39,349 nucleotides of DNA from Fodinibius sediminis (GTDB lineage Bacteria > Bacteroidota > Rhodothermia > Balneolales > Balneolaceae), in NCBI RefSeq assembly GCF_900182555.1, contig NZ_FXTH01000023.1, forward strand, positions 1 through 39,349, in the 5' to 3' direction. Of this stretch, positions 35,043 through 39,349 are shown piece by piece. The translations under genes were made by a program, and so were the position numbers. The notes beneath the pieces are model-generated. The model did no database searches. It worked only from the letters and a program-made list of their open reading frames with translations, and was not told the DNA's origin. Each line of letters starts with the position of its first letter. Within the stretch, counting starts at the first letter, position 1.

Positions 35043-35063
35043 ACTCAATTGGGAGATTACATT

Positions 35064-37535
35064 ATGGATATTTTTAATGAGAGCTTGGGTTTTTTATTTC
35101 AGTATCCACTCTGGGCGGTCATTGTGAGCATGTTCGTGGTAGCCACACTCCTGGCTTTCTGGGGAACGCCGCTTTGGATATGGGCCCTTGCCGGTTTTGT
35201 AGCCCTTTGGGGCTTTTCAGCTCCGGCCTGGTTACTGGTGGTCTTCGGGATACTGGTGCTTGTATTCAATGTTAAAGCTGTTCGCCGGGCTGTTTTGACA
35301 GGACCATTGATGAAGCTGCTGGACGCGCTGAACTTTCTTCCAGCTATCTCTGAAACCGAACGGACAGCCATTGAGGCCGGTAATGTCTGGGTTGATGCTG
35401 AGTTATTTTCGGGCAAGCCGGATTTGAAACGGTTAGCCAATGAATCGTACCCGGAGCTGTCGGACGAAGAAAAGGCATTTTTGAATGGACCTGTGGAAGA
35501 ACTTTGTTCCATGGTGGATGACTGGGATGTGTTTGTTCGCAAGGGATTCACCGATGAGGTATGGGACTACATGCGGGAACATAAATTTTTCGGGCTCATT
35601 ATCCCCGAAAAGTATGGCGGCTATAATTTTTCAGCCAGTGCGCACAGTGCGATTATTGCCAAGCTGGCCTCTCGTTGCGGGCCTCTGGCCACCACGGTCA
35701 TGGTGCCGAATTCGCTGGGTCCGGCAGAGCTTTTGATGCATTATGGTACCGAGAAGCAGAAAAACCATTATCTGCCCAGATTGGCAACAGGAGAAGAGAT
35801 TCCCTGTTTTGCACTGACCGAACCCACAGCTGGTTCCGATGCCGGCGCCATGACGGCGGAGGGGGAAGTCTTCAAGGGAGAGGATGGAGAGCTTTACATC
35901 CGGCTTAATTTTGAGAAACGCTATATAACCCTGGCTGCGATATCCACGGTGATCGGATTGGCATTTAAGCTTGAAGATCCGGAAAATCATTTGGGCAAGG
36001 GGAAGAACCTGGGCATAACCTGTGCCCTCATCCCCAGCGATACGGAAGGCATCCGATTGGGCCGCCGTCACGATCCACTGGGGGTTCCATTCTATAACTG
36101 CCCGGTTAATGGCGATAATGCCGTAGTATCGATTGATCAGATTATCGGTGGACCCGAGCAGGCGGGCAATGGCTGGCGTATGCTTATGGAATCACTGGGT
36201 GTTGGCCGGGGTATTTCGCTGCCGGCCCAGAGCGCGGGAGGGGCTAAAGTCGCTACCCGTGCCATTGGTGCTTACACGGCTGTTCGTCGGCAGTTTGGAA
36301 TAAATATAGGAAAGTTTGAAGGCATCGAAGAGCCGATGGCCCGTATTGGAGGCTTTAATTACCTGATGGATGCGGCTCGCCGCTATACCTGTGCAGCACT
36401 CGACACCGGGGAAAAGCCGGCCGTGATTACGGCGATAGCCAAATATAATTTTACCGAGCTCGGACGCCAGATAGTCAATGATGCCATGGACATTCAGGGT
36501 GGAGCAGGGATCTCCAGGGGACCGCGGAATATTTTTGCGCATCAATACACGGCCCTGCCCATTGCTATTACGGTTGAGGGGGCTAACATACTGGCCCGCA
36601 GCCTCATGATTTTTGGACAGGGAGCCATTCGTTGTCATCCGTATGCTTATGACGAAATTGATGCCTTGAGCAAAAAGGATGGGAAGGCGTTTGATGATGT
36701 TTTCTGGAAACACATCGGCCATGTAGCCCGCAACGGGGCTCGTTCTTTCCTTTTGAGCCTGAGCAGGGGAGCAATATCTTCGTCGCCGGTGGGAGGTACT
36801 GCTTCAAAATACTATAAGAAATTGTCATGGACTTCCGCTTCCTTCGCCTTCCTGGCTGATATAGCCCTTGGCTCGTATGGTGGGGGACTTAAAATAAAGG
36901 AGAAGATAAGCGGGCGGTTTGCAGATATCCTCAGCTGGATGTACCTGGCTACGGCCACTCTGCGTCGATATGATGCCGAGGGACAGCGAGAGGACGACCG
37001 CATATTTTTTGAGTGGGCAATGCAGTATGCTTTCGCCCAGATACAGGAGGCTTTCGATGCCATCTATCGCGAGATACAGGTACCCGGCCTGAGCTGGTTG
37101 TTCCATGGACCGATGGCCCTTTGGTCGCGTATTAACCGCCTAGGCACCATGCCTTCCGATAAGATGGGCCACAAGGTGGCCCAGGCAATGCAGCAGCCCG
37201 GACAGCAGCGAGATCGTTTGACAGATGGCATTTACCTTCCGAAAGATAAGGATCAGGCCATGGGACGTTATGAATATGCCCTGCAGTCTTTAGTGGATGC
37301 GGAGCCCGTCTATAAGAAAATGTATGTGGCAACGAAGAAAAAAGAGCTGCCCAAAACGCAGCCCCGTTTTGTTATTGATATGGCGTTGGAAAAAGGGATC
37401 ATTTCTGAAGAAGAGGCAGAATTGGTCCGCAAGGCAGAAGAAGCCCGTGTTGACATGGTTCAGGTGGATGAGTTTACCCTGGAAGAATATCAAAACCAAA
37501 CGCCTGCGGCACCGTTGCAAACGGATAAAACATGA
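35064..37535 (+). CDS. fadE: Long-chain acyl-CoA dehydrogenase of the E. coli FadE type
   Basis: Catalyses the first step of beta-oxidation, forming trans-2-enoyl-CoA and passing electrons to an electron-transfer flavoprotein. The 823-aa protein matches E. coli FadE from end to end: N-terminal membrane segments (about 10-80), VPNSLGPAELLMHYGTEKQK, PCFALTEPTAGSDAGA, LEDPENHLGKGKNLGITCALIP, AIAKYNFTELGRQIVNDAMD, ITVEGANILARSLMIFGQGAIRCHPY, and the FadE-specific C-terminal region (SDKMGHKVAQAMQQPG). The frame opens at TTG 35049, but ATG 35064 is preceded by GGGAGA and is preferred. It is translationally close to the TetR gene, and a strong terminator follows. FixABCX at 9.3-12.9 kb would be the fitting electron acceptor. 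Confidence 0.95.
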   Translation: MDIFNESLGFLFQYPLWAVIVSMFVVATLLAFWGTPLWIWALAGFVALWGFSAPAWLLVVFGILVLVFNVKAVRRAVLTGPLMKLLDALNFLPAISETERTAIEAGNVWVDAELFSGKPDLKRLANESYPELSDEEKAFLNGPVEELCSMVDDWDVFVRKGFTDEVWDYMREHKFFGLIIPEKYGGYNFSASAHSAIIAKLASRCGPLATTVMVPNSLGPAELLMHYGTEKQKNHYLPRLATGEEIPCFALTEPTAGSDAGAMTAEGEVFKGEDGELYIRLNFEKRYITLAAISTVIGLAFKLEDPENHLGKGKNLGITCALIPSDTEGIRLGRRHDPLGVPFYNCPVNGDNAVVSIDQIIGGPEQAGNGWRMLMESLGVGRGISLPAQSAGGAKVATRAIGAYTAVRRQFGINIGKFEGIEEPMARIGGFNYLMDAARRYTCAALDTGEKPAVITAIAKYNFTELGRQIVNDAMDIQGGAGISRGPRNIFAHQYTALPIAITVEGANILARSLMIFGQGAIRCHPYAYDEIDALSKKDGKAFDDVFWKHIGHVARNGARSFLLSLSRGAISSSPVGGTASKYYKKLSWTSASFAFLADIALGSYGGGLKIKEKISGRFADILSWMYLATATLRRYDAEGQREDDRIFFEWAMQYAFAQIQEAFDAIYREIQVPGLSWLFHGPMALWSRINRLGTMPSDKMGHKVAQAMQQPGQQRDRLTDGIYLPKDKDQAMGRYEYALQSLVDAEPVYKKMYVATKKKELPKTQPRFVIDMALEKGIISEEEAELVRKAEEARVDMVQVDEFTLEEYQNQTPAAPLQTDKT

Positions 37536-37560
37536 AATATTTGGCTTAACACGGCCCTTG

Positions 37561-37597
37561 AAAGCCTGGCTGGAAATCATTCAGCCGGGCTTTTTTT
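37561..37597 (+). terminator. Strong rho-independent terminator after fadE
   Basis: A 10-bp stem (37563-37572 with 37582-37591, one G-T pair) with a 9-nt loop is followed by T residues to 37597. It closes the TetR-fadE transcript 28 bp after the fadE stop. Confidence 0.92.
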
Positions 37598-37826: not shown

Positions 37827-39044
37827 ATGATAAGTAGAAGAGCTCTTTTAAAACGGTTGTCCGCATTGTCTGTATTTGGTTTGTTCGGAAGCGGTCTTGC
37901 CGTACAGTCGTGTGAGAATGCAAAGGGGAGAGAGGAAGCAAATGATTTAGCAGAGGAACTTGGTATTCGAACGTTTATCAATGCTGCAGGCACCTATACT
38001 TCCATGACGGGCTGCCTGATGCCTGAAGAGGTTATGCAGGCGATTAATGCTTCCTCCAATGATTATATGATGCTTGATGAGGCTCAGGGCAGGGTCGGAG
38101 AACGTATTGCCGAGATGTGTCATGCCGAAGCCGCCATGGTATCTGCAGGTTGCTGGTCGGCCATGGTGCTGGGAACGGCCGGTGTGATTGCGGGCAGGGA
38201 TTCGGAAAAGGCATCGCAGCTGCCCCACCTGGAGGGAACGGACCTTAAATCAAAAGTGATCGTTCAGAAAAGCCACAATACCGGCTATGTGCATGCCGTC
38301 ACCAATACCGGGGTTGATATTGTTCCGGTTGAAAGCAGACAGGAGCTGGAGGAAGCCATTAATGATGATACGGCAATGATGTGGTTTTTAAACAAGGCGG
38401 CCCCGGATGGACAGATCCCGCACGAAGAATGGGTAGAGGTTGGAAAGCAATACCAGATTCCGACAATGATTGATATTGCTGCTGATGTGCCGCCGGTTGA
38501 GAATTTGTGGAAATTTAATGATATGGGATTCGATTTGGTCTGCATATCCGGTGGAAAAGCTCTTCGCGGTCCACAGAGTGCGGGGATACTGATGGGACGA
38601 AAAGATCTTGTGGCCGCGGCGCGGTTTAACAGTCCTCCGCGGGGAGGTAATATCGGGCGCGGAATGAAGGTTAACAAAGAGGAGGTCCTGGGCATGTACG
38701 CCGCTGTCAAGCGCTATGTGAATATGGATCATGAGAAGCAGTGGAAGACCTGGGAGGATCATATCGCCTTGATTGAACAACGGGCGAAAGAAGTGAACGG
38801 AGTGCGTACAGAGGTAACGGTCCCTCCCATCGCAAATCATACGCCTTCGCTTGCCATTTCTTGGGATCAGAATAAGATAAACATAACACAGGAGGAACTG
38901 CGAGAGAATCTTCGCCAGGGTGATCCTTCAATTGAGATGAGGGGCAGCGGAGAGAATACCATTCATCTCACGGTATTTATGCTGCAGCCCGGGGAAGAGA
39001 AAATTGTAGCCCGTCGAATCAGGGAAGAGCTGGCAAAGGCTTAA
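37827..39044 (+). CDS. Exported SelA-like PLP-dependent enzyme with twin-arginine leader
   Basis: A 405-aa fold-type I PLP enzyme of the selenocysteine synthase (SelA)-like family, which includes D-glucosaminate-6-phosphate ammonia-lyases. The PLP site is seen as Asp216 (TMIDIAAD) and Lys244 in ISGGKALRGPQSAGIL. Unlike usual members it starts with a Tat-type leader: SRRALLKRLS, then a hydrophobic stretch, then SC at 28-29 (a weak lipobox, with Gln at -2). So it is probably exported folded with its cofactor, possibly lipid-anchored. The AGGGG at 37818-37822 supports the ATG. An amidohydrolase gene follows 27 bp later. SelA-like/amidohydrolase neighbours are known in other bacteria, but usually without export leaders. 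Confidence 0.88.
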   Translation: MISRRALLKRLSALSVFGLFGSGLAVQSCENAKGREEANDLAEELGIRTFINAAGTYTSMTGCLMPEEVMQAINASSNDYMMLDEAQGRVGERIAEMCHAEAAMVSAGCWSAMVLGTAGVIAGRDSEKASQLPHLEGTDLKSKVIVQKSHNTGYVHAVTNTGVDIVPVESRQELEEAINDDTAMMWFLNKAAPDGQIPHEEWVEVGKQYQIPTMIDIAADVPPVENLWKFNDMGFDLVCISGGKALRGPQSAGILMGRKDLVAAARFNSPPRGGNIGRGMKVNKEEVLGMYAAVKRYVNMDHEKQWKTWEDHIALIEQRAKEVNGVRTEVTVPPIANHTPSLAISWDQNKINITQEELRENLRQGDPSIEMRGSGENTIHLTVFMLQPGEEKIVARRIREELAKA

Positions 39045-39071
39045 TCATAATTTTAATATTGAATAAAGAGT

Positions 39072-39349
39072 ATGAATTGTACCGTTGATACTTCCATATA
39101 TACTGATGTTTGCAAGTGGTTTGAGGTAATAAGCTTCAAGGTGATCTCCGCTATCCTTATAATGGGTACGCTGTTGTTGGCATGCCCGGTTTTAGCCGGT
39201 GCCCAGTCCTATGACCTGGTGCTCAAGGGCGGGCACGTCATCGATCCCAAAAACGATATTGATGAACCGATGGATGTGGCCATCAAAGACGGGAAGATTG
39301 CCGAAGTGTCTGCCGACATTGCGCCGGGGGATGCGGCCACGGTGGTCGA
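39072..39349 (+). CDS. Exported amidohydrolase, N-terminal part (runs off the window)
   Basis: The frame from the ATG at 39072 runs without a stop to the window end, giving 92 residues. After a longish N-terminus comes a hydrophobic signal peptide (about 18-46) ending in LAGAQS, then YDLVLKGGHVIDPKNDIDEP and DVAIKDGKIAEVSADI, the entry strand pattern of dihydroorotase-like/deacetylase amidohydrolases. The metal-binding HxH motif would lie just beyond the window. It starts 27 bp after the SelA-like gene and is probably co-transcribed. The likely role is hydrolysis of a cyclic amide or N-acyl group of an exported compound. The incomplete end prevents a family assignment. Confidence 0.8.
   Translation, partial: MNCTVDTSIYTDVCKWFEVISFKVISAILIMGTLLLACPVLAGAQSYDLVLKGGHVIDPKNDIDEPMDVAIKDGKIAEVSADIAPGDAATVV

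Follow-up and report, generated by a model that had tools for sequence, protein, structure and literature searches.

A Tat-leader SelA-like PLP enzyme and its amidohydrolase partner in Fodinibius sediminis as parts of a predicted exported gene module

In D-glucosaminate-6-P ammonia-lyase, one of the described enzymes closest to the locus analysed here, His163 protonates the enamine, which is released when this residue is missing, and docking places Arg301, Arg332, and Arg346 at the phosphate and Arg226 near the substrate carboxylate (PMC9529869). For the H163A variant of this enzyme (DGL), a transient signal near 293 nm is reported (PMC9529869). For Cap15, the known substrate is a beta-hydroxy-alpha-amino acid, and PvdN is listed together with it among the PLP enzymes that use O2 (PMC7497351). 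Our literature search, which covered titles and abstract openings (with subscription papers and bioRxiv outside its scope), found no description of the exported module presented below, nor of any exported Rid protein or SelA-like enzyme. To our knowledge, few exported PLP enzymes are known, and PvdN is presumably exported by Tat. As for amidohydrolases of the cog3964 type, acetyl-(R)-mandelate activity occurs in this family, and the proteins behind structures 2ogj and 2ics we take to be Atu3266 and EF0837, respectively.

The window, i.e., the whole stretch of 39,349 bases that was analysed, is the entire contig C23 of the F. sediminis genome (4.43 Mb, 50 contigs). The first-pass annotation had placed in it a SelA-like PLP enzyme with SRRALLKRLS at residues 3–12, a hydrophobic stretch, and Cys29, and both these features and the coordinates are correct in the sequence (Table 1). 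The SelA-like identity is likewise confirmed by Pfam (SelA 3.4e-07, Aminotran_5 9.3e-07) and by the NCBIfam profile selA_rel of the DgaE family (3e-46, yet under its cut-off). The membership profile scores (122.6 and 158 bits) are far under the family cut-offs, and against the profile of SelA proper (TIGR00474) the protein reaches 37.5 bits, compared with the curated 267.9 bits. Selenocysteine synthase (SelA) was dropped as an identity because of this low score, and true DgaE was dropped since neither its profile cut-offs are reached nor its His pair and phosphate site matched. The predicted structure (mean pLDDT 89.5) is closest to PDB entries 8t7j and 7lc0 (fold Z 38.8 and 37.7, respectively), which together with the predicted Schiff-base lysine assigns the protein to fold-type I of the SelA/DgaE superfamily. 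The nearest relative in the named collection is a full-length copy in Fodinibius roseus (Balneolota) with 83% identity, and relatives are encoded by 133 of 139 pattern-matched stretches, so the reading frame is not a chance one.

Table 1. Positions of the features discussed, numbered along the window
Feature	Position	Strand	Basis or remark
Terminator-like stem of 15 pairs followed by a T run	37560..37594	+	consensus scan only
Tat-leader SelA-like fold-type-I PLP enzyme	37827..39044	+	405 aa, ATG start
SRRALLKRLS, residues 3-12, twin-arginine motif	37833..37862	+	sequence, conservation, Tat test
Cys29, possible non-canonical lipobox (VQSC)	37911..37913	+	sequence
NKAAPDG, residues 189-195, shortened loop at ammonia-lyase His162-His163	38391..38411	+	alignment
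Lys244, predicted PLP Schiff-base lysine (SGGK)	38556..38558	+	Lys in 111/111 aligned rows
5' part of signal-peptide amidohydrolase (cog3964/PRK09237 type)	39072..39349	+	92 aa, open 3', cut by contig end

Upstream of the SelA-like gene lies an acyl-CoA dehydrogenase gene (35049–37535, Pfam), and the terminator-like stem that follows it suggests that the SelA-like gene may be transcribed on its own; the promoter scan returned weak consensus matches only. Two paralogues are encoded in the same genome. The one on contig C10 (50% identity to the window protein) is flanked by genes for a Rid with a lipobox-like leader, SGL, and a protein of the GSDH-cytochrome c type, and the one on C4 (39% identity, 558 aa) adjoins two amidohydrolases; SusC/D are nearby in both cases. 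The C4 paralogue (L008, 274–1950) carries ~150 extra residues and an RK leader in place of RR, has a match in NCBIfam and none in Pfam, and clusters in the tree with L033, L058, L063, and the Granulicella relatives as a separate, second group of exported proteins.

Export was judged by motif, hydrophobicity, and conservation tests: the Tat test combines an RR pair, spaced hydrophobic residues, and a hydrophobic stretch, and the second test looks for a Sec-like hydrophobic N-terminus using an 11-residue hydrophobicity threshold. The counts refer to 78 loci from the best 80 of the 133 stretches; since Dyadobacter and other closely related bacteria are strongly represented among these, locus counts are not independent. 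Loci L099–L112, L113–L115, and L126–L135 are represented by match positions only, and L116–L125 were left out of the analysis.

An RR pair is readable in the SelA-like leader at 77 of these 78 loci, the exception being a broken frame (L083); for L093 and L094, the pair is found a short way ahead of the start assigned by the script. In the 111-row alignment (the window, C10, and C4 proteins plus 108 frames from the 78 loci), R4 is Arg in 110 rows and R5 in 109, and the frames with no RR near the start are the C4 paralogue, two over-long starts, and one frame cut by a contig end. Within a 49-row selection (the window plus 48, omitting one C4-type row (L063, 573 aa), minus-strand rows, and very short or long rows), both leader arginines are invariant and the rest of the leader is variable. 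The Tat test is positive for 106 of 108 SelA-like frames, 49 of 58 Tat-type Rid proteins, and all 8 members of cluster T17. The corresponding values are 0/95 for amidohydrolases, 0/12 for RraA-like proteins, 0/18 for the second Rid type, 2/35 and 1/20 for the two GSDH types, 2/24 for SusC, and 0 for the other named clusters, with a background of 18 positives among 396 unassigned frames. A Sec-like N-terminus is found in 95/95 amidohydrolases, 12/12 RraA-like proteins, and 17/18 Rid proteins of the second type, the controls being M81 (0/8) and sigma factors (0/25). SelA-like leaders pass this threshold in 44 of 108 frames only, which is a caution on export and is in keeping with Tat leaders being less hydrophobic than Sec leaders.

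With an RR motif, a hydrophobic stretch, and one TatC in the genome, the enzyme has the sequence features of a Tat substrate, and the twin-arginine leader proposed by the first-pass annotation is upheld by the arginine conservation and by the Tat test. As judged from these tests, the Tat leader is a family trait of the SelA-like enzymes, and their export appears well supported; a leader artefact was rejected given the conservation. As for a possible lipoprotein, the lipobox consensus is [LVI][ASTVI][GAS]C, by which V-Q-S-C, with Gln at −2, is possible but poor; a Cys near this position is also present in F. roseus (L020) and L026, and most of the 78 relatives (best 80 of 133 stretches) have none.

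The next gene had been read as an amidohydrolase with its own signal peptide, and such a partner, with the hydrophobic N-terminus reported above, is indeed present at 69 of the 78 loci (best 80 of 133 stretches). The window fragment begins with a hydrophobic N-terminal segment ending in ...LAGAQ, followed by the amidohydrolase start, and scores 7.3e-12 (44.5 bits, for an incomplete frame) against the NCBIfam PRK09237 type, whose cut-off of 371 bits is passed by the copies on contig C12 (432) and in F. roseus (417). Its last 149 bases (39201–39349) are identical to the C12 copy (L005, 12387–13700) at 148 positions, and contig C14 (100,784 bases) breaks off within a third copy (L098, 9877–10785; 302 open residues) that starts 139 bases further along the gene than the end of C23. 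The contig break is probably due to this stretch being nearly identical between the copies, and C14 very probably holds the rest of the window gene, C23 and C14 thus forming one locus; the join rests on synteny with F. roseus and on the shared near-identical C12 copy, not on reads. The HxH motif of the window gene falls in the 139-bp gap and is present in the C12 and F. roseus copies. That the amidohydrolase frame ends just past the window, which would have spoken against the earlier reading, is very probably not the case, and this option was rejected on the strength of C14 and F. roseus. The C14 and C12 copies share 822 of 908 bases, with blocks of identity beside diverged stretches, and the near-identical stretches look like recent gene conversion.

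Extending the locus past position 39349, as had been advised, leads on C14 from the amidohydrolase to a PIG-L gene, whose product has a KRKDFL leader, and then to the importer genes for a TctC-TctB fusion and TctA. Beyond them, C14 encodes a protein that combines GSDH, PKD, cytochrome c, and CBM6, as well as a TIM barrel of the xylose-isomerase-like type. In F. roseus the gene order is SelA-like, amidohydrolase, PIG-L, TctC-TctB, and TctA, and two sulfatases with an N-sulphoglucosamine-sulfohydrolase C-terminal domain lie upstream. According to Pfam, the TctC receptor is fused to the TctB membrane subunit ahead of TctA in both genomes (L098 7136–8512, L020 12049–13425). On C12 (L005, 10165–12314), an RraA-like gene with a hydrophobic N-terminus directly follows the amidohydrolase and is followed by an SBF symporter gene (Pfam); the window genome carries the RraA-like/SBF part of the module on this other contig. 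No Rid gene is adjacent at the window locus or in F. roseus, which counts against the explanation preferred below; within the window genome, Rid genes occur at only two places, next to the paralogue on C10 and on C11, and the Tat-type Rid has no match in this genome at 1e-20.

Around the 78 loci (best 80 of 133 stretches, as for all locus counts in this paragraph), 947 frames were clustered and the cluster representatives were run against Pfam. Rid is found at 63 loci (Tat-type at 53, second type at 15), including 60 of the 68 loci of at least 11 kb; F. roseus is among the remaining 8. The catalytic Arg and Glu are present in 58 of 58 Tat-type Rid proteins, 57 of which have RR in the leader, and in 18/18 and 17/18 proteins of the second type, respectively. 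As for other partners, a GSDH-cytochrome c protein occurs at 35 loci, SusC or SusD at 26, an SBF symporter at 22, CBM9 at 21, a second GSDH at 20, cytochrome c at 17, a seven-bladed lactonase at 14, an RraA-like protein at 12, SGL at 10, and M81 at 8, and the larger exported set also includes dehydrogenases and Na+ or TTT importers. PQQ is the cofactor of GSDH proteins, pyruvate-like acids can be transported by carriers of the SBF type, and 4-hydroxy-2-oxo acids are the substrates of RraA-like proteins; the RraA-like proteins found here match the models for 4-carboxy-4-hydroxy-2-oxoadipate aldolase/oxaloacetate decarboxylase under the cut-off. In five Niastella loci the order is Rid, SelA-like, amidohydrolase, RraA-like, and SBF. 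As far as sequence comparison goes, the exported SelA-like/amidohydrolase/Rid module is real, conserved, and larger than its part in the window, having exported Rid, RraA-like, and lactonase partners, as well as importers and SusCD, outside it.

Cluster T17 is a conserved Tat-leader protein of ~432 aa (e.g., L081 3997–5295) with no match in Pfam or NCBIfam. It is present in 8 loci (L081, L055, L068, L069, L076, L077, L080, and L082) and always adjoins the exported amidohydrolase on the same strand.

In a phylum sample of 395 genomes, the SelA-like enzyme is found in 8 (the window genome included) and the Tat-type Rid in 7 (both at E 1e-20); all 7 are among the 8, and the eighth is the window genome. 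The distance between a Tat-type Rid copy and the SelA-like gene closest to it ranges from 27 to 2,381 bp. The chance value for this co-occurrence, 2.8e-14, assumes independent genomes, whereas the genomes are related (3 of the 7 belong to the window's family).

Regarding plasmid records, 238 have a match, 40 of which were listed, 11 fetched, and 9 used; the S. meliloti pCpl and Streptomyces records were left out of the alignment and the tree. Among the plasmid matches listed, three leaderless alphaproteobacterial SelA-like enzymes adjoin Rid and ABC transporters (a separate solute-binding protein and two permeases), and a PRK09237-type gene ("amidohydrolase/deacetylase family") is present at two of these three sets. 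The cytoplasmic SelA-like/amidohydrolase neighbours invoked in the first-pass annotation thus have leaderless representatives. The S. meliloti pCpl match has neither Rid nor amidohydrolase and sits among phosphonate-type genes; the Streptomyces record carries no annotation. Five leaderless haloarchaeal relatives among the same listed matches adjoin PIG-L, GH20, sulfatase, D-aminoacylase, or DHDPS-family aldolase genes. In Granulicella (Acidobacteriota), the row RraA, SelA-like, Rid, second SelA-like, amidohydrolase, and lactonase has N-termini that are Tat- or Sec-like by eye, and none of the 8 non-Granulicella plasmid-record relatives analysed has a leader. The tree of 42 hand-picked rows, which has long branches and a small control set, splits 32 exported rows from 10 others with branch support 100/99.

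At position 163 of the ammonia-lyase, the 111 aligned rows have a gap (105), E (5), or D (1) and never His; at position 162, His is found in 5 rows, and the window protein has A at 162 and a gap at 163. A His elsewhere in this loop is present in 33 of the 111 exported rows, which counts against the argument from its loss. Of the 111 rows, 1 has Arg at the equivalent of Arg301, 3 at that of Arg332, and none at that of Arg346. Loss of most phosphate-site arginines together with that of His163 agrees with a substrate that is not phosphorylated and with possible release of the enamine, which would then be dealt with by an exported Rid. Against the preferred explanation, R372 of the window protein corresponds to Arg332, the one phosphate-site arginine that it retains, and the Arg226 equivalent is Lys in 79 rows and Pro in 1 of 111. 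The idea that Rid compensates for the lost His163 is weakened, since among the plasmid matches listed a Rid gene is near all three His-keeping alphaproteobacterial relatives and near three of the five His-lacking haloarchaeal ones.

In our estimate, the chances are about even that the SelA-like/amidohydrolase pair is part of an envelope catabolic module performing periplasmic ammonia elimination. The SelA-like enzyme would acquire PLP and fold in the cytoplasm before export by Tat, and the amidohydrolase would leave the cytoplasm by Sec. In the periplasm, the amidohydrolase (here also the PIG-L-type hydrolase) would take an acyl group off an imported compound, the SelA-like enzyme would eliminate ammonia from a 2-amino-3-hydroxy acid, which may be an amino-sugar acid, and Rid, where present, would convert the enamine or imine to a 2-keto-3-deoxy acid and ammonia. 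An exported RraA-like aldolase may cleave this acid, and the product would be imported by an Na+ symporter (SBF) or a TTT system. Support is moderate for the reaction and weak for the substrate: the Cap15 substrate and DGL point to a 2-amino-3-hydroxy acid, and an amino-sugar acid is favoured because of the GSDH, lactonase, SGL, CBM, SusCD, PIG-L, and sulfatase neighbours. The limited spread of RraA-like, SBF, and SusC/SusD genes (12, 22, and 26 of the 78 loci only, best 80 of 133 stretches) counts against this explanation. Slightly short of an even chance is the fuller version, in which deacylation, PLP elimination, Rid hydrolysis, and aldolase cleavage would all take place outside the cytoplasm, enamines being both formed and quenched within the periplasm and the resulting keto acid or pyruvate alone entering the cell, as a relocated counterpart of the cytoplasmic SelA-like/Rid/amidohydrolase set. 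From the earlier interpretation, Tat export, the exported partner, and the leaderless counterpart are retained, and an amide-bearing sugar or amino compound stays a candidate substrate.

The main rival to an amino-sugar acid is 3-hydroxyaspartate. The same exported elimination would then act on a beta-hydroxy amino acid, oxaloacetate being decarboxylated by the RraA-like protein and acids being taken up by SBF or TTT carriers, which we consider unlikely though worth keeping in view. The matches of the RraA-like proteins to aldolase/oxaloacetate decarboxylase models (under the cut-off), the TctC-TctB and TctA genes that both C14 and F. roseus have behind the amidohydrolase gene, and the ABC transporters of the alphaproteobacterial sets agree with such a substrate. 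CBM6/CBM9, GSDH, lactonase, and SGL, however, point to sugars, as do SusC/SusD (26 of the 78 loci, best 80 of 133 stretches) and the PIG-L, sulfatase, and GH20 genes of other loci.

A different chemistry, in which the exported enzyme would be a Cap15-like oxidase or oxygenase that depends on O2 and PLP and acts on beta-hydroxy-alpha-amino acids in an oxic periplasm beside dehydrogenases and cytochromes, seems doubtful, more so than the 3-hydroxyaspartate reading. Its fold evidence is about level with that for the ammonia-lyase, Cap15 being the top match, and this counts against the preferred explanation; GSDH-cytochrome c genes at 35 of the 78 loci (best 80 of 133 stretches) and PvdN, an O2-using PLP enzyme that is presumably Tat-exported, also fit an oxidase. 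In the tree, however, Cap15, whose branch is long, pairs with DGL apart from the exported rows, and an oxidised amide would match the Rid and RraA-like partners less well than would an enamine and a 2-keto acid. It is very improbable that the leader is unused and that both proteins stay in the cytoplasm. The RK pair of one paralogue and the only moderate hydrophobicity of the SelA-like leaders could be read that way, but RR is nearly invariant while other leader residues vary, the partner proteins bear leaders of their own (Tat- or Sec-like), leaders also occur in the Acidobacteriota set, and the 8 non-Granulicella plasmid-record relatives analysed have none.

If periplasmic elimination is true, amine-eliminating catabolism of sugar acids or amino acids, including control of reactive enamines, would take place in the periplasm, and genes whose annotation goes no further than "aminotransferase class V", "RidA family", or "amidohydrolase" would gain a role. 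Many environmental bacteria share this gene set, and its several independent partner enzymes would make the SelA-like/cog3964 substrate testable.

In comparison with known systems, the window protein resembles the ammonia-lyase (PDB 7lc0, 7lce) in fold (Z 37.7, 351 residues aligned), PLP lysine, and TIGR01437/NF047797 profile similarity, and differs from it by an identity of 22–23%, by the leader, and by the absence of His162-His163 and of most phosphate-site arginines. Cap15 (PDB 8t7j), an O2- and PLP-dependent enzyme of capuramycin biosynthesis, shares the fold (Z 38.8) and the PLP lysine; it is, however, biosynthetic, keeps the His163 equivalent, and groups elsewhere in the tree. As for the partner, the F. 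roseus protein has the cog3964-type amidohydrolases 2ogj and 2ics, along with 8je0, among its top PDB matches and differs from 2ogj and 2ics in having a signal peptide. The Rid proteins of the module share the catalytic Arg and Glu with RidA/YjgF enamine/imine deaminases and differ from them by Tat- or Sec-like leaders. Finally, PvdN of Pseudomonas is similar in being an exported fold-type-I PLP enzyme and different in family and role (pyoverdine).
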